A DNA stretch of 20,653 bases from the IMG/VR virus record IMGVR_UViG_3300043410_000861, positions 1 through 20,653 of that record; one strand, written 5' to 3'. Position numbers and translations under genes: made by a program. This document shows, piece by piece, positions 2-11,343 of the stretch (its first letter is position 1; each line of letters opens with the position of its first letter). This DNA is from a virus. A model generated the notes under the pieces. That model was not told the origin of the DNA, did no database searches, and was given only the letters and a program-made list of their open reading frames with translations.

Positions 2-1732
2 GTTGATTCTAATACTCAAATTACTTTAGTTGCTAATGCTGCAGTTGCTGTAACTGCAGGTGCGTATAATATTGTATCTACTGGTATTACAACTAAAAAT
101 TCCCCATTAACTAATGCTGAAATTGATGCTAACTTTATTAACATCAATAATTCAGTTGTTGCTGGTGCAAACTCTTCTACAAACAACGTAGCAAATACTT
201 TAGTAAAACGTGATTCTTCTGGTGGTTTTTCAGCTGGAGCAGTAAACGTTACTTCAGTAACAACAAGTGGTGTAACATATCCAACTACTAATGCGACACA
301 AGCGCAAATGGAAGCTGGTACTGATACAACTACTCGCTACATGACACCTCAGAATATTCAACAAGCTATTAACGTATTAGCACTACAATCAATTGGTGCT
401 ACTACTAAAGATATGACTGGTTTTGAAACTATTGCTGGTTCTACTTTAGCATATGTTGACGCAACTCGTGTATTTACTCTTGGCACATCCACATCATATA
501 ACGTTTGGTATCGTGGTACAAAAACTACAATCTCTACTAATAAAACTATAACCTTATCAAATTCAGCAGGTTTGCATATCATTGCTCTAAACCCATCAAC
601 TATGAATTTAGTTGAAGTTACTAACGATGATACAATGTTTACTGATACAATTTTAGTTGCATCAATTTATTTGAATACTGGAGCAACTAAAGGTATTATT
701 GTCGGAGACGAGCGTCATGCTGCATCTAGAGATACAGATGCTCACAAAATGATGCACAATAATGTTGGTGCTATCTGGAGATCTGGTGGTGCATTAACTT
801 ATACTCTTAATAATGATTCAGCAACAACATTAAGTTTTGCTTCCCCTATCCTATTACAAGATGAAGATTTAGTACATACTATCTCTCACAACCCTACTCC
901 TTCTGGTTATCTACAACAAATTTTAACTGGCACTGCTCAGCTTCCGACTCTTTATATGAACGGAACAACATATGACCAGACATCATTATCTACAACCCCA
1001 TGGGTTGCTGGTACTGTTACTGCTCGTATCAATTCAATTTCTAGTGGCAGCGGTTCTCTAGCAGATGCTGGTGAAGGTAAATATTTAAACTATTGGATTG
1101 TTGCAACGCACGACGTTGTTTCTCCAATTAAAGCAATCATGGGTCGTGTTGCATACACAACTCAAAGCGAAGCATACGCTGAACAATGGACATCTTACGA
1201 TTTACCATTCCCAGAAATTGCTCCTATGTATCAAGTTACTTTATTAACATCATCTACATATGCTGGTAATAAAGTAAGAATTGTAAACGTAAGAACTCTA
1301 CCAGACAGAGTTGGCTCTAATACTAAAACTCTTGGTGTTCTTGCGCACAGTCAGATGGCTGCATTAACAACTTCTGATGATCATACACAATATGTGCATA
1401 TTTCTAATGCAAGAACAGTTTCTGCCGCAAATACTTATAGTGGAAATAACACATTCCAAGGTACACAAACGTTTGCGACAATTCTAGTTAATACTGGGGT
1501 TGGATCAAGTTTAATTCCAACATCAGCCTCTGCATACGACCTTGGTTCTACAGGTGCTGCATGGCGTCACGTTTATACTTCTGACTTACATTTATCTAAT
1601 GAACAACATGAATCTGGTAACGTTGTAGACGGAACACGTGGTAATTGGACTGTTCAAGAAGGTGAGGAAATCCTTTACCTTATTAATAATAAAAATGGGA
1701 AACGTTACAAGTTTAAACTAGAGGAAGTATAA
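2..1732 (+). CDS. Tail-fibre-like structural protein, 5' end outside the window
   Basis: The frame is open from position 2 with no start needed, so the N-terminus lies upstream; 576 residues are visible. The first ATG, at 308, is internal. The upstream part reads KNSPLTNAEIDANF and NTLVKRDSSGGFSAG, motif styles recurrent in fibre proteins of aquatic T4-like phages. TTTRYMTPQNI follows, and then a DDHTQY motif near visible residue 460, a type seen in fibre collar regions. The C-terminus has LGSTGAAWRHVYTSDLHLSN and ends in a WTVQEG...INNKNGKRYKFKL block typical of these fibre proteins. I see no S74 chaperone domain. The composition (Thr, Ser, Asn, Gly, Ala) suits a beta-structured trimeric fibre. 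The stop TAA shares its last base with the next gene's ATG, indicating translational coupling. The fibre role is inferred from motifs. Whether this is a long, short or whisker-type fibre cannot be told. Confidence 0.8.
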   Translation, partial: VDSNTQITLVANAAVAVTAGAYNIVSTGITTKNSPLTNAEIDANFININNSVVAGANSSTNNVANTLVKRDSSGGFSAGAVNVTSVTTSGVTYPTTNATQAQMEAGTDTTTRYMTPQNIQQAINVLALQSIGATTKDMTGFETIAGSTLAYVDATRVFTLGTSTSYNVWYRGTKTTISTNKTITLSNSAGLHIIALNPSTMNLVEVTNDDTMFTDTILVASIYLNTGATKGIIVGDERHAASRDTDAHKMMHNNVGAIWRSGGALTYTLNNDSATTLSFASPILLQDEDLVHTISHNPTPSGYLQQILTGTAQLPTLYMNGTTYDQTSLSTTPWVAGTVTARINSISSGSGSLADAGEGKYLNYWIVATHDVVSPIKAIMGRVAYTTQSEAYAEQWTSYDLPFPEIAPMYQVTLLTSSTYAGNKVRIVNVRTLPDRVGSNTKTLGVLAHSQMAALTTSDDHTQYVHISNARTVSAANTYSGNNTFQGTQTFATILVNTGVGSSLIPTSASAYDLGSTGAAWRHVYTSDLHLSNEQHESGNVVDGTRGNWTVQEGEEILYLINNKNGKRYKFKLEEV

Positions 1733-2883
1733 TGGCATATTACGTTTCAAATGTCTTAGTAAAAGAAGTTCCAGCTACACCAGATGCATCACGTGGTGCA
1801 TTTTTGATGTCAACAGGAACTTCTGGTACTGGTTATGGTTGGGCATATATTGGTGGATCAACAACTGGTATCGCTATTGATAACAGTGCTTGGAGATATC
1901 GTTCAATCTACACTCATGGTTATATTGCTTGTGGATACAAAGGTTCAAACCCATGGCGTTCTGTTAATAAAACTTGGCACCCAACTGACACTACATTCTA
2001 TTGTGGTGAACAGATTATGAATACTCAGTCATATACAAATGGTACATGGTCTGACTATAATGGTTATATTGTTGCTAACGGTGGTATGTCTGCTTCTGGT
2101 TCAGTTGTTGCTTCTTATGGTTTACACAATGGAACTTGCCGTATGTATTCTGGTGATGGTTATTCTTCTTCTGGTATTTCATATGATTATGTTGGTAATG
2201 ACCCAAAGAACGAAGGTCTATCTTATGGTAGTGCTGGTTTTGGTTCGCACGTTGGTGGTATGCGTATGGATAGAAACCGTGTTGACCCATGCTGCGCAGA
2301 AGATATTAAAGGTCAATCTGGATGGATTGTTGGTGGCGGTTCATCTGTAACTTCTCGATTAAACTTTACATCAGAAGTAATGTACGCTGGTTGGGATTCT
2401 GGTACAGATGGTATTGGAGACGGTGCTTCTGGTGAACTAAGAGGTTGGTTCGCTTGGCCAGCAACATACAGATATGTTACATGGTCTAATTCTACATGGT
2501 CTGGTACAGGTGTTTGGGGTAACTGGAGTAGAGATGGCCAGTGTAATACTCAATCCACAAAATATGGTTGGCATTATATTGGTAATGGTTCAAACGTTAC
2601 ATCAGGTAAATCAAAATTCAGAGATTCAGATGGAGTTACATTAACTAACTTCAACAAGGTTCGTGCTTATGGTGAAGAGAACGTTGAAGAAGGACAAGAC
2701 TGGGGTTATATTATGGGGCATTATGATGGCCAACAAAATAACCATACAATTAAACAAGATCACTCAACTGATACTGAAGTGACAATGGGTGCAACTTGCA
2801 TGCCAAAAGGACACTATGGACAATCTTCAGGAGCATGTTCAACAGCCGCAGCAACTGTAACTGCTTCTGGTGTAGGGATGTAA
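1732..2883 (+). CDS. Virion structural / adhesin-like protein, paralog A
   Basis: A 383-residue protein very rich in Gly, Ser, Tyr, Trp and Asn, with no transmembrane segment. It shares a family with the next gene. Common blocks are SAW-YRSIYTHGY (residues 52-64), GSNPWRSVNK (71-80), YCGEQI (90-95), DPKNEGLSYGSAG, GASGELRG and the C-terminal KGHYGQSSGACST. I associate this block pattern with proteins of T4-like cyanophages and related marine phages that lie near fibre genes, but no biochemical function is known to me. Its position after a fibre gene, the aromatic and Gly-rich make-up and the TAATG overlap with that gene suggest a distal fibre or adhesin component made together with it. Conserved cysteines could be structural. 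The start is fixed by the overlap and by GAGGAAG just upstream. Confidence 0.75.
   Translation: MAYYVSNVLVKEVPATPDASRGAFLMSTGTSGTGYGWAYIGGSTTGIAIDNSAWRYRSIYTHGYIACGYKGSNPWRSVNKTWHPTDTTFYCGEQIMNTQSYTNGTWSDYNGYIVANGGMSASGSVVASYGLHNGTCRMYSGDGYSSSGISYDYVGNDPKNEGLSYGSAGFGSHVGGMRMDRNRVDPCCAEDIKGQSGWIVGGGSSVTSRLNFTSEVMYAGWDSGTDGIGDGASGELRGWFAWPATYRYVTWSNSTWSGTGVWGNWSRDGQCNTQSTKYGWHYIGNGSNVTSGKSKFRDSDGVTLTNFNKVRAYGEENVEEGQDWGYIMGHYDGQQNNHTIKQDHSTDTEVTMGATCMPKGHYGQSSGACSTAAATVTASGVGM
2187..2239 (+). repeat. 53-bp block identical to 3355-3407 (copy 1)
   Basis: Direct comparison shows that these 53 bases match 3355-3407 exactly, third codon positions included. They encode the shared DPKNEGLSYGSAG block of the two tandem paralogs. 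Shorter identical blocks pair 1941-1972 with 3100-3131 and 2815-2845 with 3989-4019. Much of the sequence between the blocks has diverged. Confidence 0.9.
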
Positions 2884-2884
2884 C

Positions 2885-4060
2885 ATGTCGTTTTATAAAG
2901 CAAATGCTTTGTTACGTTCAGTACCAATCACAACGACGGTTGGTTCAAGATTATCATCTAATGGAACAACATCATCTGGTGTAGGTAATTATTTTTGGAA
3001 TTATCCAGGAAATACAAATACTGGAAGCGGGACACCAGATAATTCAGCTTGGTTATATCGCTCAATTTATACACACGGTTACCTTGGTGGAGGATATAGA
3101 GGTTCAAACCCATGGCGTTCTGTTAATAAAATGTGGTTTGGTACAGAAACTACAATGTATTGCGGTGAACAGATATTTCAGGTAGCATCTTATACTAAAG
3201 GTGTTTGGTCTGATTATAATGCTTATGTTGTAGCTCATGGTAATACCGCAACATATGCTGCAACAACAACTGCAATTGGTTCTTATAGTTTATTTAATGG
3301 AACTATGAGGATGAGATCATCTGATGGTTTTTCTTCTTCTGGTATTTCTTATACTTATGTTGGTAATGACCCAAAGAACGAAGGTCTATCTTATGGTAGT
3401 GCTGGTTATGGATCTCACGTTGGTGGTATGGCCATGGATAATGCTCGTTCTGATAATGGCGGATCTAATGACATTAAAGGTCAATCTGGGTGGCTTGTTG
3501 GTGGTGGCTCAACGTCAACTAATAGATTATATTATTTAACAGAAGTTATGTATAGTGGTTGGGATTCTGGGGATTCTGGTATTAATGATGGAGCTTCTGG
3601 AGAGCTTCGTGGATATCATGCTTGGACTTCTTCTTACAAATATATAACATGGTCTACCTCTTCATGGACTAGCGGTTGGCAAAACGGTGGTGGTTGGTCA
3701 CGTGGTGACTATCAATGTAAAATTATGAGTTCTAAATATGGCTGGCATTACATTGGAACTTCAAGCAATGTTACATTACCAAAAGCTAGATTTAGAGATT
3801 CTGATGGTACAACCCTTGCTACATTTAATAAAGTTAGAGCATATGGCGAAGATAACTGTATGATGGGACAAGATAATGGATATGTGATGGGTCATTTTGA
3901 TAATCAACAAAACAATCATACTATTCGCCAATCATATAGTACAGATTCAGAAGTAACACTACCATCTACTGCTCAACCAAAAGGACATTATGGACAATCT
4001 TCAGGAGCATGTTCAACAGGTGCTATGACGGTATGTTCAAATAGCCCAGTAACATTCTAA
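2885..4060 (+). CDS. Virion structural / adhesin-like protein, paralog B
   Basis: A 391-residue tandem paralog of the preceding gene, one base after its stop, with AGGGATG upstream as a possible ribosome site that lies inside the previous coding region. The conserved blocks are in the same order: YRSIYTHGYL, GSNPWRSVNK (73-82), YCGEQI, DPKNEGLSYGSAG, GQSGWLVGGGS, GASGELRG and KGHYGQSSGACST at the end. The N-terminal 50 residues and the stretches between blocks differ, and the final residues end ...CSNSPVTF instead of ...ASGVGM. The pattern suggests a conserved scaffold with variable segments, as expected for surface-exposed recognition proteins. That reading is inference, and a purely structural role is possible. 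A late-promoter-like octamer overlaps the stop codon. Confidence 0.75.
   Translation: MSFYKANALLRSVPITTTVGSRLSSNGTTSSGVGNYFWNYPGNTNTGSGTPDNSAWLYRSIYTHGYLGGGYRGSNPWRSVNKMWFGTETTMYCGEQIFQVASYTKGVWSDYNAYVVAHGNTATYAATTTAIGSYSLFNGTMRMRSSDGFSSSGISYTYVGNDPKNEGLSYGSAGYGSHVGGMAMDNARSDNGGSNDIKGQSGWLVGGGSTSTNRLYYLTEVMYSGWDSGDSGINDGASGELRGYHAWTSSYKYITWSTSSWTSGWQNGGGWSRGDYQCKIMSSKYGWHYIGTSSNVTLPKARFRDSDGTTLATFNKVRAYGEDNCMMGQDNGYVMGHFDNQQNNHTIRQSYSTDSEVTLPSTAQPKGHYGQSSGACSTGAMTVCSNSPVTF
3355..3407 (+). repeat. 53-bp block identical to 2187-2239 (copy 2)
   Basis: Second copy of the identical block, 1168 bases downstream of the first, in the same reading frame of paralog B. See copy 1 for the other identical blocks. 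Confidence 0.9.
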
Positions 4061-4087: not shown

Positions 4088-4912
4088 ATGAGATACATTA
4101 TAACAAAAACAGACCCTTTTAAGAAATACTTCGGTATGGGTGGAATGGATCCTGCAATGTATTGTAGAGATTTGTACACTTTATTTGATATTTCTTGTAT
4201 TGAAATAGCTGAGCCATTATTAGATTCTTTGTATCCAATTCTACCAATTGGTTATGAAGAAGTAACTAAAGATGAAGCTCTATATGGAAGCACATTCTTC
4301 TCAGAGATACGAGATAAAATTAAAATTATAAATCCAGCTTCTCCAATGGCAGAAACAACTGCCATGCCAGAAACTGAAAAAATTCAGATTGATATGACTG
4401 GCGAAATGAGACAACATATTGTAACATTTATGTATCGTTTTGCTAAAGAACTTATTGAAGACGAATTTAATTATAGATTCAAAGATATATCTAAAACTAA
4501 TGATATTGAAACAGCTTCTTGGCAAATTCAAAAACATGAAGCGCAAGAATGGCTTACATATCAAGGTGCTGATGGACACACAACTAGATTTTTAGATTAT
4601 CTTGCACAAGAACATAATGTAGATAAAACAGAGTTGGCCAATAAAATTCTGCAAAAGGCAGAAGAATATGAAGATAGATTATCTGATATGTTGGTCGTGC
4701 AGCAGAAATTAATTAAACAATTTAAAAACGCTCAAACTGTAAAAGATATGAACGTTTTGTATGAAAAGTATTTTGGTATTATGATGCCTATTCAACAAGC
4801 GCAAGAATTAGGGCTTTCTGATGAATGGGGTAATAGAATTTTTTATAATGATAATGGTGATAAAATGTATGAGATTGTTAATCCATATATGGGACATAAA
4901 TTTAATTTTTAA
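4088..4912 (+). CDS. Protein with a DUF4376-like segment, possibly fibre-associated
   Basis: A 274-residue soluble protein with no signal or membrane segment. Residues about 139-225 follow the pattern I know from DUF4376-type phage proteins: an ETASW...EAQEWL segment, then FLDYLAQEHNVDKTELANKI, then a helix with LVVQQKLIKQFKNAQTV. DUF4376-like segments commonly occur in small proteins encoded next to tail-fibre genes and are often taken as fibre assembly or attachment factors. The N-terminal half (KYFGMGGMDPAMYCRDLY and following) is unknown to me. The gene directly follows the fibre-like paralogs. The upstream AGGAAATGTA supports this start. Domain assignment is by remembered pattern only. 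The Asn codons are mostly AAT (about 10 of 12), unlike gp23. Confidence 0.6.
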   Translation: MRYIITKTDPFKKYFGMGGMDPAMYCRDLYTLFDISCIEIAEPLLDSLYPILPIGYEEVTKDEALYGSTFFSEIRDKIKIINPASPMAETTAMPETEKIQIDMTGEMRQHIVTFMYRFAKELIEDEFNYRFKDISKTNDIETASWQIQKHEAQEWLTYQGADGHTTRFLDYLAQEHNVDKTELANKILQKAEEYEDRLSDMLVVQQKLIKQFKNAQTVKDMNVLYEKYFGIMMPIQQAQELGLSDEWGNRIFYNDNGDKMYEIVNPYMGHKFNF

Positions 4913-4932: not shown

Positions 4933-5757
4933 ATGAGTGATTTGACAACTACTGCATGTAGAGTATACGATATCGTTAAACCAGATAGTAAAGTGGTTAG
5001 CGATTTAAAATTAGATGAAAAAGAAATGAGAATTGTTGTTGGTGCTTTAAATATGAGCAGCAACCAGTCTGAATATCAAAATAAATTCTTCGTAACTGCT
5101 TCCCAATTAACACCTTATAGAATGCTAAAACAATGCATGCTTGAGATTGAATCAAGACATCATTCTTGGTATAATGTTAAAAATAAACATAAACGTAAGT
5201 TAATTGAAATTCAAATGGCAAAACGAGAACTTGAACATATTAAAGATCCTTTAGCCAAACAAATGCTTGAAATTGATATTGAAGATATGGAAAATGATTG
5301 TCGTATCTGGGAACGTAAACTACTTCAAGCTGAAGATGAGATGATGGGATTCATCAGACAAGTAAAAGAAATTGCTGGTGATGATGAAGAAATGTTAAAC
5401 AAAGCATTTACATATGATGCTGAAGAAGAACGCCAATACTGGGTTACACGTATGGCAAAACAGGCTGCTATGGATATGATTTCTTATGGTCGTATCGGTA
5501 CTGGTAATATGGATAGTATTGCTATGATGCCTGAAGAAGATCAAATTCTAACATTAGCAACTACACTTCAATATAATGAGAGATTAATTGGTGGGTTAAG
5601 CCAAATTAGTGCTGCTGTTAGTCAGGGATTATTAGAAAATAAAGAACATCTTCCTAAATTTGATGTACCGAAAGTTACCGATAAATTATTAGCTACTGAG
5701 TTTTTAAAAGATGTTCAGCATACCGTACAATCCAAAGTTAAACCAGAATCAGTTTAA
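4933..5757 (+). CDS. Hypothetical helical protein
   Basis: A 274-residue protein that I cannot assign. It looks mostly helical. Residues about 83-148 are dense in Lys, Glu, Arg and Leu (KHKRKLIEIQMAKRELEHI and following), suggesting a coiled coil. A conserved-looking patch, YWVTRMAKQAAMDMISYGRI, occurs at 169-188. There is no catalytic motif or signal peptide. A clear GAAGGAAAC ribosome site precedes the ATG, 20 bases after the previous gene. The last 47 bases overlap the start of the U32-methyltransferase gene in another frame, so the two are probably translationally coupled. A structural, fibre-assembly or partner role for the next gene's product are all possible; none is shown. Confidence 0.7.
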   Translation: MSDLTTTACRVYDIVKPDSKVVSDLKLDEKEMRIVVGALNMSSNQSEYQNKFFVTASQLTPYRMLKQCMLEIESRHHSWYNVKNKHKRKLIEIQMAKRELEHIKDPLAKQMLEIDIEDMENDCRIWERKLLQAEDEMMGFIRQVKEIAGDDEEMLNKAFTYDAEEERQYWVTRMAKQAAMDMISYGRIGTGNMDSIAMMPEEDQILTLATTLQYNERLIGGLSQISAAVSQGLLENKEHLPKFDVPKVTDKLLATEFLKDVQHTVQSKVKPESV

Positions 5758-7345
5758 CGAATTTATACAATTCATTAAACGTCATAGAAATTTAATCTAT
5801 GACGTTTATTTCACTTGTAGAATAGCACCTTTTACTCAAGATGCTATGGGTGATGTTTTCATTAACGATCCTCAAGATCTTATTGAAAATGCTTTGTATA
5901 TTCAAAATGAAACTGGCATTAAAGTCTCAGCCACGTTTAATAATCTTGAAGTTAGACCAGACCAAGAAAATCTAGATCTTTGGATTGAAAACTTTAAACC
6001 ATTATATGAGCGTGGTATTCGTTCATGCACATTACCACACACTCACTGGATTTTAACTGGTAAGATTCAAAAAGAGTTCCCAGAACTTCTTATCAAAAAT
6101 ACCATCTTAAGAAATCTTAATACTGCTGGACAGGTAGCGAAAGCTGCAGAGGCAGGATTTCATTATATCAACATTGATCGTGTATTAATGCGCGACACAG
6201 ACACTCTAGAACGTATCCGTCAAGTAAAAGAAAAATATGGTGTAAGAATTGCTCTGTTAGCTAATGAGGGTTGTCTTGGTAATTGTCCAGTTATGGATGA
6301 ACACTTTCAATTCAATAATACTCGTAAAGATGGACCACAGTATTTTACTGATCCAATTTCAAGAATCTCTTGTCCAAAATGGGATGTTCTTGAACCTGCT
6401 TCCTCTTTAAAATCTGCTACCCTTCCTCCTTGGAGAGAAGACTGGGAAGAAATGTTCAAGTACGTTGATGTGCTTAAAATGCACGGTAGGGAATCTGTAA
6501 TTCAAATGTACTCAACAATGGATATTATTAATCGTTATGCTAACGGTGAAGAAATCCTTTTTGACGAGTTCAACGATTACATCAATGATAAAAACCTAGC
6601 TGGTAAACCTATCCAAGCATGGAGACAGTTTATCAAGAACTGTAAGTTTGATTGTTGGGATTGTAACAAATGTGATAAACTATTTGAAGCAAAGAATAAA
6701 AATCATACTTCAGAAAAGGTTATCAAAGTTGTTAAAACCCTAGCATTCCACGATAATGAAGTTAGACCAGAGATTGATATTACTGGACTTTCTTCTAGAA
6801 GAATGCAAAACCTACTGACTGAACTTGGTGGATTATCTACAAAGTATCTAGAAGTCGGTTCTTATTTGGGTGCTTCTGGAGCAGCGGTTCTACGTTCTTC
6901 AGTGGAAGAAGCAACGTTTGTGGATCACTGGAAAGATAACGTTCAACCAGCGAACGGGGAAAATCTCCCTGTTAATAACAAAGCTCAATTTATTGAGAAT
7001 ATCAAACGCTTTAAGAATGGTAGAGATCTAAAAGTATTTGATTGTGATATGTTATCTGTAGATAAAAGCGGTCTAAAAGATATCGACTTTTTCTTCTATG
7101 ATGGTGCTCATGATTTTGAATCTACTTCTAATGCAATCAGATACTATGCTAGTTGTTTAGCAAACGAGGCTATTATTCTGGTAGATGACGCCAATTGGGA
7201 TGGAGTTGTTGATGGAGCTGAAGATGGTATTGAAAGAGCTGGTTTAGAGATTTTATTTAAAAAGATATGGCTAAATAATCAAGAATCTAAAGAACAATGG
7301 TGGAATGGGTTCTTTATTGCAGTTGTGAAAAAAATAAATAAATAA
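5711..7345 (+). CDS. Peptidase-U32-like domain fused to a class I methyltransferase-like domain
   Basis: A 544-residue two-domain protein. Residues 1-330 resemble the U32 family: an N-terminal FSIPYN, DVYFTCR (31-37), and NEGCLGNCP (185-193) followed by a His at 198. Cysteines at 36, 188, 192 and 221 could bind an Fe-S cluster, as in UbiU/UbiV of that family. A second group, C311-C315-C318-C321, follows. Residues about 350-544 look like a Rossmann SAM-dependent methyltransferase: YLEVGSYLGASG (379-390) as the glycine-rich motif, FVDHW, DIDFFFYDGAHDFE, and IILVDDANW. The target is unknown: RNA, a glycan on fibres, or a small molecule are possible. The start is the first available, because an in-frame TAA at 5705-5707 precedes it. 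The ribosome site is weak, and the 47-base overlap implies coupling to the upstream gene. I know of no such protein in T4's structural region. Confidence 0.7.
   Translation: MFSIPYNPKLNQNQFNEFIQFIKRHRNLIYDVYFTCRIAPFTQDAMGDVFINDPQDLIENALYIQNETGIKVSATFNNLEVRPDQENLDLWIENFKPLYERGIRSCTLPHTHWILTGKIQKEFPELLIKNTILRNLNTAGQVAKAAEAGFHYINIDRVLMRDTDTLERIRQVKEKYGVRIALLANEGCLGNCPVMDEHFQFNNTRKDGPQYFTDPISRISCPKWDVLEPASSLKSATLPPWREDWEEMFKYVDVLKMHGRESVIQMYSTMDIINRYANGEEILFDEFNDYINDKNLAGKPIQAWRQFIKNCKFDCWDCNKCDKLFEAKNKNHTSEKVIKVVKTLAFHDNEVRPEIDITGLSSRRMQNLLTELGGLSTKYLEVGSYLGASGAAVLRSSVEEATFVDHWKDNVQPANGENLPVNNKAQFIENIKRFKNGRDLKVFDCDMLSVDKSGLKDIDFFFYDGAHDFESTSNAIRYYASCLANEAIILVDDANWDGVVDGAEDGIERAGLEILFKKIWLNNQESKEQWWNGFFIAVVKKINK
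5776..5811 (+). terminator. Perfect 13-bp inverted repeat, terminator- or attenuator-like, inside a coding start
   Basis: The arms at 5776-5788 (TAAACGTCATAGA) and 5796-5808 are exact reverse complements around a 7-base loop, followed by TTT. It begins 18 bases after the stop of the upstream gene, where an intrinsic terminator would be expected. It is also translated as residues about 22-33 of the U32-methyltransferase protein. The stem is long but has only four G-C pairs and a short T tract, so termination may be partial. Other roles, such as attenuation or mRNA protection, fit equally well. Confidence 0.5.
7333..7344 (+). promoter_or_regulatory. Two overlapping late-promoter-like octamers before gp13
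   Basis: AATAAATA occurs at 7333-7340 and again at 7337-7344, overlapping the final codons and stop of the U32-methyltransferase gene. The second copy ends 23 bases before the gp13 ATG, the same distance as the copy before gp19. Both match the NATAAATA form of the T4 late -10 element. The overlap arises from an AAAT tandem run, so only one is likely to be used. Confidence 0.5.
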
Positions 7346-7367: not shown

Positions 7368-8333
7368 ATGGCTGTCGCTACAAGAGAACAATTAAAACAA
7401 TACGCACTTCGTAATCTGGGAGCACCTGTCCTAGAGATTAACGTAGACGACGCCCAGCTCGAAGATCGTCTAGATGAAGCATTAGATTACTTCAATCTCT
7501 ATCATTACGAAGGTGTAGAACAGATGTATTTGAAGCATATGATTAATGCTTCACTACTTACTGTCACTTCATCTGCAGGAATTCCTGCAATTGGCACTAA
7601 ATTGATTAATACGCAAGGTGGTACTTGCGAGGTTATCCGTCAATGGAATAAAGATTCAACTTCAACTGTTTGGACTGTTAAAAATGTTCAAGGCGATTGG
7701 ACTGTTGTTGGGAGCGAGATCAAGGATACTACCAACCAGTCTGGTCCAGTTTTAGGTTTAGTTAGCACAATGGTTAAGGGTGAGTGGGATTTAAAATATA
7801 TTACAACACCAGATTATGTTTATGGTGTTACTAAGATTTTAAACATCGGTCAAGCATCTTCTTCTAAGAATATTTTTGATTTACAGTATCAATTACGTTT
7901 AAATGACTTATATGACCTTACTTCAACATCTATTGTATATTATAAAACTGTAATGTCGCATTTAGCGATGCTCGATCTTGAGTTAAATGGACATCCTTTG
8001 TATCGTTTTAATCGCATGCAAAATCGTTTATATCTTGACGTCAACTGGGAAACTGATGTTATTGTTGGTGACTATATTTTAATTCAAGGGTATCGTGGAT
8101 TAAATCCAGAAGATTATGTAAAGATTTTCAATGAACCATGGTTAAGAAAATATGTAACTGCTCTTTTTAAACGTCAATGGGCTATTAATATTAAGAAATT
8201 CTCTGGATTACAATTGCCAGGTGGTGTAACTCTTGATGGCGATAAATTATACGTTGAAGCCACTAAAGAAATTGAAGATCTAGAAGATGAATTAAGAACA
8301 AAATCTGCACCACTAGATTTCTTCTTGGGGTAA
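7368..8333 (+). CDS. 13: Neck protein gp13
   Basis: A 321-residue protein, close to the 309 of T4 gp13. gp13 and gp14 complete the head after DNA packaging and form the neck to which the tail joins. The N-terminus REQLKQYALRNLGAPVLEIN (6-25), followed by VDDAQLEDRLDEALDYF, is the characteristic gp13 signature. A beta-like segment with many Thr and Val lies at about 62-135 between the N-terminal helices and YITTPDYVYGV. The C-terminal part (WLRKYVTALFKRQWAINIKK) also fits. The gene order 13-14-15 matches T4. TTAGGAC upstream may be the ribosome site, and the late-promoter-like octamers above may start this transcript. Confidence 0.92.
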   Translation: MAVATREQLKQYALRNLGAPVLEINVDDAQLEDRLDEALDYFNLYHYEGVEQMYLKHMINASLLTVTSSAGIPAIGTKLINTQGGTCEVIRQWNKDSTSTVWTVKNVQGDWTVVGSEIKDTTNQSGPVLGLVSTMVKGEWDLKYITTPDYVYGVTKILNIGQASSSKNIFDLQYQLRLNDLYDLTSTSIVYYKTVMSHLAMLDLELNGHPLYRFNRMQNRLYLDVNWETDVIVGDYILIQGYRGLNPEDYVKIFNEPWLRKYVTALFKRQWAINIKKFSGLQLPGGVTLDGDKLYVEATKEIEDLEDELRTKSAPLDFFLG

Positions 8334-8336
8334 ACT

Positions 8337-8999
8337 ATGCCAAGAAATCCGTATTTCACCCAAGGTACTTCAGGTGAACAAGATTTAATTGAGAATATTA
8401 TCATAGAGTCTTTGAAGATCTATGGTCAAGATTTTCTATATATTCCTCGCACTCAAATATCAACAGATAGAATATTCGGAGAAGACCGTCTATCAAAATT
8501 TGAACACGCATATCCAATTGAAATGTATTTCGATAACATTGAAAGTTTAGCAGGTCAAGGTGCAATTATTCAAAAATTTGGTCTATTAATGGATCAATCA
8601 GCAACTCTTACTGTTGCTCGTAAACGTTGGAATGATTTGATTGCAATTCATGGCACTACCCATTTACCAAATAGACCAAACGAAGGTGACTTAATTTACT
8701 ATCCTTTGACAAAAGGTTTATTTGAAATTAAATTCGTTAAACATCAAGAGCCTTTCTATCAATTGGGTAAGTTGTATACATACAAACTTGATATTGAATT
8801 ATTCCAATACAGTAGCGAAAAAATTGATACAGGTATTCCTGAGGTTGATGTATTCGAGAACCTTAAATCGTTTGATGTTACAGTCAATCCTAATGTACAA
8901 GATGCTACGGGATTTGCTGATAATAATGCATTCAAAACAGCAGCTTCTACTGAAAATGCTTTGTTTGATGAATCTAATCCATTTGGAGAAGTTAAGTAA
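8337..8999 (+). CDS. 14: Neck protein gp14
   Basis: A 220-residue homolog of T4 gp14 (256 residues), the partner of gp13 in the head-tail neck. MPRNPYFTQGTSGEQDLIEN at the start, DFLYIPRT and the LIYYPLTKGLFEIKFVKHQE region are typical of the family. The C-terminal tail is Asn- and Ala-rich and less conserved-looking. It starts 3 bases after the gp13 stop with a GGGGT ribosome site inside the gp13 end, and its stop overlaps the gp15 start as TAATG, so 13-14-15 appear translationally linked. Confidence 0.93.
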   Translation: MPRNPYFTQGTSGEQDLIENIIIESLKIYGQDFLYIPRTQISTDRIFGEDRLSKFEHAYPIEMYFDNIESLAGQGAIIQKFGLLMDQSATLTVARKRWNDLIAIHGTTHLPNRPNEGDLIYYPLTKGLFEIKFVKHQEPFYQLGKLYTYKLDIELFQYSSEKIDTGIPEVDVFENLKSFDVTVNPNVQDATGFADNNAFKTAASTENALFDESNPFGEVK

Positions 9000-9757
9000 T
9001 GTTAAACAATAGCGTATTTTATCATGGTGTAGTTAGAAAATGTATTATCGGCTTCGGTCGTTTATTTTCTAACATCTATATTGATCGTAAACAAACAGAT
9101 CCAGTTAATGGTACAACTGTTCAACGTTTGCACGTTCCACTTTCATATGCACCTAAAGAAAAGTGGTTAGCACGTTTGGATGAAGATCAAACGTTAGAGA
9201 ACCACACGCTTACTTCTCTTCCACGTATCTCATTTGAAATTATTGCATATACTTACGACTCTTTGCGTAAAATGAATCGTATGCAGTATATGAAAAATGA
9301 TGCTGCTTCTGCAAATGAAAATGGTGCTGCTTTAATCAGAACACCTGTACCATATAACATCGATATGTCTGTGTATATTATTACAAAAACACAAGAAGAC
9401 GCTTTACAAATTCTTGAACAAATTCTTCCATGGTTTACGCCAGAATATTCTATGACGATTAATGCTGTTGATGAGATGGGTATTAAGTTGGATGTTCCAG
9501 TTGTTTTAAACTCAGTTATTGTGTCAGATGAATTTGAGGGTACTTTCCAAGAACGTCGTTTCGTTATTCACACGATTAACTTGCAGATGAAAGTTTCTCT
9601 ATTTGGTCCACAAAGCGACCAAAACGTTATTGGTACTGCAAATGTTTCTGTTTCTCAACAACCGTTAGAAGCGAATGCTCCATCTACTCATTATCATGCG
9701 GTTGGGGATATTCCAACCAAAACAATTACTGACGAAAGCTGGATTGACGAACTATAA
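8999..9757 (+). CDS. 15: Tail sheath stabiliser / tail completion protein gp15
   Basis: A 252-residue homolog of T4 gp15 (272 residues), which forms the hexameric ring capping the tail tube and sheath where the neck docks. NSVFYHGVVRKCIIGFGRLF (4-23), the PLSYAPKEKWLARL segment and LPRISFEI are recognisable family blocks. Residues near 110-200 (NIDMSVYIITKTQEDALQIL...LPWFTPEY) also fit. The short C-terminal tail, rich in Pro, His and Thr, looks variable. The start shares an A with the gp14 stop. Only 8 bases follow before the large terminase gene, leaving no room for gp16. Confidence 0.93.
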   Translation: MLNNSVFYHGVVRKCIIGFGRLFSNIYIDRKQTDPVNGTTVQRLHVPLSYAPKEKWLARLDEDQTLENHTLTSLPRISFEIIAYTYDSLRKMNRMQYMKNDAASANENGAALIRTPVPYNIDMSVYIITKTQEDALQILEQILPWFTPEYSMTINAVDEMGIKLDVPVVLNSVIVSDEFEGTFQERRFVIHTINLQMKVSLFGPQSDQNVIGTANVSVSQQPLEANAPSTHYHAVGDIPTKTITDESWIDEL

Positions 9758-9765
9758 AGTAAATT

Positions 9766-11343
9766 ATGGCTGAGATTTATAATAGTAATGCGAATTTAAA
9801 AGCTGCTGGCGTTTCTGTACAATTTACTCCTGATCAGATTCAGGAGTATATCAAGTGCGCTCAAGATCCAATATACTTTATTCAGAATTATTGTTATATC
9901 GTTACGCTTGATCACGGTCTTCAAAAGTTTGACTTATATGAATGTCAGAAAAAGAAGATTGATGTAATTCATAATAATCGTCGTGTGATTCTTATGGAAG
10001 GTCGTCAACAGGGTAAGACTACGACCTCTGCAGCATACATTCTATGGTACACTTTATTCCAAGCAAATAAAAACGTAGCGATTTTGGCTAACAAAGCTGC
10101 AGCTGCACGTGAAGTTCTTGACCGCTATCAAACGATGTATGAGAATTTACCACACTGGATGCAACAAGGTGTTACAGGTTGGAACAAAGGTGACATCGAA
10201 TTAGAAAACGGTTCAAAGGTATTCACTGCTGCAACAGGAAAGTCTGGTATTCGTGGTAAGTCTGTAAACTTACTATATGTTGACGAAGCTGCAATTATTC
10301 CAAACAACGTTGCTGAAGAATTCTTCACTGCGGTTTACCCGACTATTTCTGCAGGTCAAACTACTAAGATTCTTCTTTCCTCTACTCCACTAGGTTACAA
10401 TCACTTCTGGCGTTTCTGGAATGACGCTGAGAACGATCGTAATGGTTTCGTTCCATTGTTTATTCCTTATTGGGAAATCCCAGGAAGAACTAAAGAATGG
10501 GCTGAAGAACAACGTAGGATGTTGGGTGAGCTGAAGTTTAACCAAGAGGTTCTATGTAACTTCCTTGGTTCTAGTTTAACTTTAATTCGTGCTGACGTTA
10601 TCGCTAAGATGACCGTTGATCAACCTATCTATCAGAAAGATGGTTTAGATTGTTACGTTAGACCTCAAAAGAATCACACTTATTGTATGACGGTTGATAT
10701 TGCAGAGGGTGTTGGTGGTGACTATTCTACATTCCAAGTTGTAGATATTACTGAAGCTCCATATAGAATCGTTGCAAAATTTAGAAAAAATGACATAACT
10801 CCACTTTTATTCCCTAATATAATCCATAAGGTTGCTACGGAATATAACAAAGCCTTTGTTTTAGTTGAGATAAATATGTCTGATCAGGTTGCTCAAATTC
10901 TTCATCAAGAATTAGAGTATGAAAATATATTGATGGTTAATAGAACCGCAGGAAGCCAAGTAGTTGGTGGTGGTTTTGGTGGAGGAAAATCTTATCTAGG
11001 TGTAAGCACAGATAAGAGAGTAAAACGTGTCGGATGCCATAACTTTAAAGCGATGGTTGAAGAAGATAAACTTCTGATTACAGACCCAGATACTATTTCT
11101 GAGATCTCTACATTTATTGAAAAACGCAGCTCTTATGAAGCTGATGAAGGTTATCATGACGACTTAGTTATGCCATTGGTTCTGTTTGGCTGGCTTACTA
11201 CCCAGTCTTATTTTAAAGAACTAAATAATATTAATATGCGTAAAATTATGTATGAAAAGCAGATGCAAGCTATCGAAGAAGATTTGACACCGTTTGGTTT
11301 CTACGATGACGGCAAACCCGAAGCTGATCCTTTGAATTTTTGA
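9766..11343 (+). CDS. 17: Large terminase subunit gp17 (packaging ATPase and nuclease)
   Basis: A 525-residue motor that cuts concatemeric DNA and pumps it through the portal into the prohead. The ATPase domain has Walker A GRQQGKTT (79-86), Walker B LLYVDEA (169-175) and a coupling motif LLSSTP (203-208). The nuclease domain shows candidate metal ligands D311 (VDIAEG), E368 (LVEIN) and D465 or D466 (YHDDLV). The 57-residue D-to-E spacing equals that of T4 gp17 (D401 and E458). The protein is shorter than T4 gp17 (610), mainly at the ends. It follows gp15 directly; no clear Shine-Dalgarno site precedes the ATG, so reinitiation after gp15 is likely. Confidence 0.95.
   Translation: MAEIYNSNANLKAAGVSVQFTPDQIQEYIKCAQDPIYFIQNYCYIVTLDHGLQKFDLYECQKKKIDVIHNNRRVILMEGRQQGKTTTSAAYILWYTLFQANKNVAILANKAAAAREVLDRYQTMYENLPHWMQQGVTGWNKGDIELENGSKVFTAATGKSGIRGKSVNLLYVDEAAIIPNNVAEEFFTAVYPTISAGQTTKILLSSTPLGYNHFWRFWNDAENDRNGFVPLFIPYWEIPGRTKEWAEEQRRMLGELKFNQEVLCNFLGSSLTLIRADVIAKMTVDQPIYQKDGLDCYVRPQKNHTYCMTVDIAEGVGGDYSTFQVVDITEAPYRIVAKFRKNDITPLLFPNIIHKVATEYNKAFVLVEINMSDQVAQILHQELEYENILMVNRTAGSQVVGGGFGGGKSYLGVSTDKRVKRVGCHNFKAMVEEDKLLITDPDTISEISTFIEKRSSYEADEGYHDDLVMPLVLFGWLTTQSYFKELNNINMRKIMYEKQMQAIEEDLTPFGFYDDGKPEADPLNF

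Follow-up and report, generated by a model that had tools for sequence, protein, structure and literature searches.

Which reaction might be carried out by a protein that joins a U32-like half to a methyltransferase-like half, and why does its gene lie among the structural genes of a phage? These questions are raised by a viral DNA of 20,653 nucleotides (IMG/VR record IMGVR_UViG_3300043410_000861, positions 1 to 20,653), the whole of which is referred to as the window in the following. The terminase encoded in the window is closest to those of Synechococcus and Prochlorococcus myoviruses (approximately 51%), and the contig is therefore taken to come from a Kyanoviridae-related phage of the T4-like type. 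The gene under study and its surroundings are arranged as follows:

1732–2883, plus strand: copy a of the GC351-like fibre protein (PHROG 1417), a putative substrate
2885–4060, plus strand: copy b of the GC351-like fibre protein (PHROG 1417), likewise a putative substrate
4088–4912, plus strand: T4-GC 352-like gene (PHROG 1604), cassette member
4933–5757, plus strand: T4-GC 353 gene (PHROG 1409), cassette member, the 3' end of which overlaps the fusion gene by 47 bases
5711–7345 (including the stop codon), plus strand: fusion gene, 544 aa, T4-GC 354 / PHROG 1458, ATG start
7368–8333, plus strand: neck protein resembling gp13 (head-tail adaptor Ad2 in PHROG), not part of the cassette
8337–8999, plus strand: neck protein resembling gp14 (head closure Hc2 in PHROG), not part of the cassette

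An earlier note on this DNA had placed the gene between fibre-like genes and the neck genes. The PHROG assignments Ad2 (gp13) and Hc2 (gp14) confirm this position; the label "fibre-like" of the GC351 proteins derives from annotation and position only.

The fusion gene belongs to a widespread family

We confirmed that the open reading frame at 5711–7345 is real and conserved. A chance origin is excluded, because 123 phage records match its protein and 270 IMG/VR stretches encode relatives. In the PHROG profiles the protein matched PHROG 1458 with an E-value of 2.8e-150, and the homologues in P-SSM4, Syn33, P-HM2 and S-ShM2 are annotated as T4-GC 354. The 123 records were obtained from INPHARED by tblastn with the fusion protein as query. 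All of them are Synechococcus, Prochlorococcus or "Cyanophage" entries, the aligned length reached at least 80% in 121 of them, and the identity was 38–44% among the matches listed. Relatives of the N-terminal domain were found in at least 582 IMG/VR stretches.

The same fusion, for which a search in other phages had been suggested, is thus common in T4-like cyanophages, and many T4-like marine and freshwater phages carry the two-part protein within a tail-fibre gene cassette. T4-GC 354 and PHROG 1458 are the identical family, with the gene order GC352-353-354 kept, and public annotation knows it as "hypothetical protein" only. T4-GC 354 is an unrecognised, widespread family that is not unique to this phage. 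The earlier expectation of an undescribed system is supported in part only, as the pairing of a U32-fold enzyme with an O-methyltransferase is of a known kind.

In several public records and in the PHROG model the start is set at M46, such that 45 conserved residues are missing. An unusual start codon or a frameshift at the 5' overlap was considered and rejected, as all relatives possess an in-frame ATG, GTG or TTG: the codon aligned with the first codon is often ATA, ATT or GTC, and a usable start is found there or a few codons upstream.

The C-terminal half resembles O-methyltransferases

The protein consists of two domains, and a boundary near residues 330–345, as read from the sequence before, was right:

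5711–6682, plus strand: N-domain, residues 1–324, a TIM barrel of U32-like fold in which seven cysteines are conserved (AlphaFold2; 5D88 match)
6683–6742, plus strand: interdomain linker, within which the gene break of split relatives falls (split-locus comparison)
6743–7342, plus strand: C-domain, residues 345–544, Methyltransf_24-type with a catechol/TrmR-like O-methyltransferase fold (PF13578; structural Z 15–17.6)
7100–7195, plus strand: D464, D492, D493 and N495, probable metal or substrate site by putative role (invariant in 41 sequences)

The methyltransferase half that had been suspected was borne out by PF13578 (Methyltransf_24), which scored 33.9 bits for the whole protein and 36.3 bits for the C-half alone, above the Pfam cut-off of 26.3. 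For the C-domain, the full-length AlphaFold2 model (pLDDT 83.6) predicts the fold of class I SAM-methyltransferases. The residues of the SAM site are conserved, and G383, G387, D405, D464, D492 and D493 do not vary among 41 sequences. Its structural matches were O-methyltransferases, among them TomG (Z 17.6), a bacterial catechol O-methyltransferase (17.4), SafC (16.7), Rv0187 (16.6), the TrmR structures 5zw3 (16.2) and 5zw4 (15.4), and MeT1- and SpnH-type enzymes. Since these matches are nearly tied, they do not single out an exact subfamily. The acidic residues of the C-domain are likely metal ligands, as in this methyltransferase family. From the model, the C-domain is probably a SAM-dependent and presumably metal-dependent O-methyltransferase. 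It shares the passed Pfam cut-off, the fold and the conserved acidic residues with the Methyltransf_24 and catechol-type enzymes, but differs from them in being joined to a U32-like domain.

The N-terminal half is U32-like at the level of the fold

As methyltransferases dominate the structure search with the full-length protein, the N-domain was modelled alone (AlphaFold2, pLDDT 85.8, pTM 0.87). The model contains eight barrel strands (residues 2–5, 29–35, 72–75, 105–108, 127–130, 152–155, 179–183 and 254–256). Among 999 PDB chains, the U32 peptidase domain 5D88 matched it best, with a Z of 16.5 and an rmsd of 3.2 over 222 of 247 residues, and MTHFR was the next family (Z 13.7). A review (PMC11574389) refers to 5D88 as the experimentally determined example of the U32 fold, and its U32 status rests on the structure title and that publication, a small U32 profile having given no sequence match to it. 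Among viral models, the first distant match with a name came from Escherichia phage OLB35, where the protein is called "Peptidase" (TM 0.74, relative to the target).

At the sequence level, the U32 profile PF01136 gave no match at E up to 10 for the whole protein, the N-half or 41 relatives, nor in a six-frame search of the whole window, and the fusion protein matched nothing in NCBIfam, U32 included. A profile-profile comparison of the N-domain with U32 scored 30.7–34.4 with E-values of 0.001–0.005, but with a probability of 7–21% and over barrel strands 3–6 only. The corresponding scores against the TIM-barrel families MTHFR and AP_endonuc_2 were 16–19 (E 0.15–0.3), and U32 itself scored 22–23 against these two families. 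Searches of PDB sequences with the fusion protein, family profiles and E. coli U32 proteins returned nothing useful; matches to 1c2y, 7odf, 4h14 and de novo TIM-barrel sequences were treated as chance. Given 5D88 as the best fold and the weak sequence evidence, we call the N-domain U32-fold rather than a member of PF01136. The U32-type character claimed for this half is hence supported for the modelled fold and, weakly, by the profile-profile comparison. It failed on the Pfam U32 profile and on the usual cysteine spacing.

Conserved residues and cysteines of the N-domain

The sequence motifs that had been quoted for the N-domain were located at residues 2–6 (FSIPY), 31–37 (DVYFTCR) and 185–193 (NEGCLGNCP, with H198 downstream), and most of their residues are invariant or nearly so in 37–41 relatives. 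Three elements stand out:

6263–6373, plus strand: NEGCxxxCP..EH (C188, C192, H198) to C221, first cysteine group, invariant in phage and bacterial homologues
6476–6490, plus strand: K256-x-H-G259-R260 after strand 8, which by eye resembles the U32 motif K-[IV]-E-G-R
6641–6673, plus strand: C311-x3-C315-x2-C318-x2-C321, second cysteine group, located after the barrel and conserved in a 12-row set

In this set, which spans phage and bacterial homologues, none of the 12 rows lacks C188, C192, C221, C311 or C315. C318 and C321 reach 92%, the sole exception being a row that ends at a contig edge. K256, G259 and R260 are invariant. The usual cysteine motif of U32 proteins is CX6CX15CX3/4C, and that of the UbiV type CXnCX12CX3C (PMC6747719). 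Neither form of this four-cysteine motif is present in the N-domain, which instead possesses C188-x3-C192-x28-C221 and a CX3CX2CX2C group at 311–321. An Fe-S cluster in the N-domain is likely, with the conserved cysteines as candidate ligands.

The seven cysteines could also bind zinc. The U32-fold half might then lack redox activity and be a zinc protein, a binding module or a peptidase, for example a factor for fibre folding or processing, beside which only the methyltransferase would be an enzyme of the modification. Such a role would agree with the original classification of U32 proteins as peptidases (PMC6747719, PMC11574389) and with the presence in the cassette of GC352 and GC353, for which their position would allow a role in assembly. 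We nevertheless consider it rather unlikely. The catalytic face of the barrel is lined by invariant polar residues, and invariant residues are concentrated in the barrel-top loops of this face (29 of 64 positions versus 42 of 260 elsewhere, p = 2e-6). Furthermore, the N-domain is the more conserved half, with a mean identity to the window residue of 0.64 versus 0.46 for the C-domain, and it is found without the methyltransferase in bacteria.

Fused and split versions of the gene

Of 152 parsed loci, 139 carry a fused methyltransferase according to a motif test. The other 13 comprise 8 split loci, 2 fused cyanophage records in which the motif is missing, 1 locus that is cut off and 2 copies of one bacterial gene. 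In the 8 split loci (L108–L113, L117 and L118) the N-domain gene ends without a methyltransferase. The three that were read (L108, L112 and L117) contain an N-domain gene of approximately 352 aa and a methyltransferase gene of 184–196 aa, which overlap by 22 bases. Within the tree the split loci adjoin the clade of the window, with uneven support. Because fused and split states both exist in nature, the two halves appear to work together; this is good evidence of their joint action.

The gene is inherited together with a fibre cassette

GC351-like genes and GC353 accompany the fusion gene or the split pair in all 134 phage loci with at least 2.5 kb of upstream sequence, with one to four GC351 copies per locus. 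Two tyrosines of the window's copy a, Y69 and Y101, are invariant among the GC351 proteins. In isolate records, compared as counts rather than as accession lists, GC354 was found in 123 entries (Synechococcus 77, Cyanophage 38, Prochlorococcus 8), GC353 in the same numbers of each plus 2 others (125), and GC351 in 75, 28 and 6 (109). The phage distributions of GC353 and GC354 are thus nearly identical. A related terminase was present in 377 Synechococcus and 61 Cyanophage records. From these counts it follows that the cassette occurs in a minority of the phages and that its members are inherited together. In S-ShM2, GC354 lies approximately 5 kb away from its cassette partners.

Three kinds of gene are frequent downstream of the fusion in relatives: among 112 loci, 91 have one for a DUF401 membrane protein, 46 one for a 2OG-Fe(II) oxygenase and 45 one that is DUF6065-like. 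The window possesses none of the three downstream of the fusion gene, where gp13 is the next gene.

Bacterial homologues lie next to secretion genes

A stand-alone N-domain of 353 aa with 43–45% identity is encoded in a Campylobacteraceae genome bin. Its gene overlaps a TolC gene by 4 bases, and ABC-C39 and HlyD genes follow. In a second genome (G520) the N-domain is part of the same operon of type I secretion genes (TolC/ABC-C39/HlyD). In a third (G333) its gene is located on the opposite strand to adjacent TolC, HlyD, M50-HlyD, SecA-like and tryptophan-halogenase-like genes, and genome G351 contains two tandem paralogues of 540–555 aa. Directly upstream of the Campylobacteraceae gene, the end of a secreted-type repeat protein was noted by eye, which Pfam did not confirm.

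The methyltransferase half is absent from the bacterial homologues. Within Campylobacterota the N-domain is rare (3 of 397 sampled genomes). Three N-domain-bearing bacterial genomes were checked, and each contains one true U32 protein as a separate gene elsewhere. Homologues in a Dehalococcoidia and a Euryarchaeota bin (L092, L093) appear to lie on phage contigs that were binned wrongly; they were left out of the cellular homologues.

A proposed hydroxylation followed by O-methylation

The hydroxylation of rings by U32 enzymes requires no O2, the oxygen apparently being supplied by prephenate (PMC6599085, PMC11574389). The hydroxylated products are often O-methylated: TrmR converts ho5U to mo5U after hydroxylation by U32 proteins (PMC6599085), and in ubiquinone synthesis C6-hydroxylation precedes O6-methylation (PMC6747719). 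Since such pairing is known and split two-gene versions exist, the two-step modification that had been suggested for the fusion protein is plausible.

Our leading reading, which we put forward tentatively as possible though somewhat short of probable, is a bifunctional protein-modifying enzyme of the tail-fibre cassette, in which a U32-fold hydroxylase and an O-methyltransferase act on GC351. In the pathway that we infer, the N-domain would be an oxygen-independent hydroxylase with a divergent U32 fold and, probably, an Fe-S cluster. It would hydroxylate a residue, most likely an aromatic one, of the neighbouring GC351 fibre protein with prephenate as the oxygen donor. The fused, probably metal-dependent O-methyltransferase would subsequently cap the new hydroxyl with a methyl group from SAM, such that the modified residue would carry a net mark of +30 Da.

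With the U32 oxidases (UbiU, UbiV, TrhP/YegQ and RlhA; PF01136) the phage protein shares the TIM-barrel fold as in 5D88, cysteines that are conserved close to strand 7 and, following strand 8, K-x-x-G-R; it would also share a hydroxylation paired with O-methylation. It differs from them by the absence of a Pfam U32 match, by its own cysteine spacing, by the fused methyltransferase and by the fibre or secretion context. The substrates described for U32 enzymes are RNA or a quinone precursor, none being a protein (PMC6599085, PMC6747719, PMC11574389). Among the substrates considered before, i.e. RNA, a sugar or a virion protein, the genomic context favours the virion protein: taken together, the fibre cassette of the phages and the secretion operon of the bacteria point to a surface protein rather than RNA.

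RNA as the substrate we judge unlikely. The U32-like half would in this case hydroxylate a pyrimidine of tRNA or rRNA from the host or the phage, and the methyltransferase half would O-methylate it, like TrhP/YrrNO and TrmR in the formation of mo5U34. This tRNA pathway is the closest chemical precedent for U32 plus an O-methyltransferase (PMC6599085), and TrmR is among the best C-domain matches, but many non-RNA O-methyltransferases match equally well. The gene is also co-inherited with the fibre cassette and not with translation genes, secretion genes adjoin the bacterial homologues, and the window contains no tRNA gene. TrhP1/TrhP2 (YrrO/YrrN) and TrmR of Bacillus subtilis likewise combine a U32 hydroxylase with a SAM-dependent O-methyltransferase whose fold is near that of the C-domain; they differ in being separate proteins that act on tRNA U34, in belonging to PF01136 and in being unlinked to fibres or secretion.

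Less likely again is that the enzyme acts not on an amino acid but on a sugar or another small group carried by the virion or by a secreted surface protein. Methyltransf_24 includes sugar O-methyltransferases, and the MeT1- and SpnH-type structural matches fit such a target. A glycan would also be compatible with the secretion and fibre context, but no glycosyltransferase is found among the recurrent neighbours, and bacterial homologues lack the methyltransferase half. Most improbable is a radical-SAM-like N-domain with its cluster on C311-x3-C315-x2-C318: CX3CX2C, which is conserved, has the radical SAM spacing and such enzymes form barrels too (PMC11574389), but the motif sits after the last strand (strand 8) and not the first, PF04055 is unmatched in any member although the same library detects radical SAM in the gene next to locus L041, and a U32 structure is the best structural match; radical SAM membership was rejected.

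The reading as a hydroxylase and O-methyltransferase of fibre proteins can be extended to a doubtful but more far-reaching form, in which the N-domain would be the first protein-acting U32-fold hydroxylase. Its targets would be tyrosines (or other aromatic residues) that are conserved in adhesive proteins, and their hydroxylation would need no O2. The phage methyltransferase would then yield an O-methylated DOPA-like fibre residue, and the stand-alone bacterial enzyme would act on surface proteins exported by type I secretion. Among hydroxylases that work independently of oxygen, the U32 oxidases form a young class with described roles in RNA and ubiquinone modification; if the proposal is true, this class would be extended to protein (or surface) modification. 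The enzyme would be of a known kind, a U32-fold enzyme with an O-methyltransferase, and the new substrate class, which is only proposed, is plausible. The proposal provides a large "hypothetical" cluster of marine phages with an enzyme hypothesis and predicts a specific, testable mass shift for named phage proteins. Putative hydroxylases of another type, the 2OG-Fe(II) oxygenases near the fibre genes of Kyanoviridae, often occur in the same region; they are oxygen-dependent and of an unrelated fold and family.

The genes next to the fusion gene, which joins a U32-like N-domain to a methyltransferase domain, were recorded among its relatives. Downstream of the fusion gene, 91 of 112 loci carry a gene for a multi-spanning membrane protein of the DUF401 type (e.g. 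L010:7663-8709). Directly 3' of the fusion gene many relatives carry a 2OG-Fe(II) oxygenase gene as well as one whose product resembles the DUF6065-like protein of locus L052 (e.g. L016:7575-8967).

Two GC351-like fibre genes stand in tandem in the window (1732-4060); among relatives the copy number ranges from 1 to 4. The encoded proteins share a conserved C-terminal G..GQSSG stretch as well as the invariant residues Y69 and Y101. In one relative a radical SAM gene (PF04055, L041:4983-6020) is flanked by a GC352-like gene and the fusion gene. At L112, where N-domain and methyltransferase are separate genes, a subtilisin-like protease gene, recognized by eye from its GTSMAAP motif, is located inside the phage fibre region (8794-10623).

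For S-CAM4, P-SSM4 and P-RSM1 (L082, L083, L088) the annotated start at M46 cuts off about 45 conserved residues. L092 and L093 appear to be phage contigs misbinned into Dehalococcoidia and Euryarchaeota metagenome assemblies.

On contig 72 of the bacterial genome G333 (L099 and L104) a U32-like gene and a SelO gene adjoin a cluster comprising TolC, HlyD, GAF-HlyD, M50-HlyD, SecA-like, tryptophan-halogenase-like and two APH-type genes. Contig 27 of another bacterial genome, G351, carries two tandem paralogues of 540-555 aa (L100), in which the C-terminal 320 residues match the N-domain and the region before them appears to be a further copy in degenerate form.
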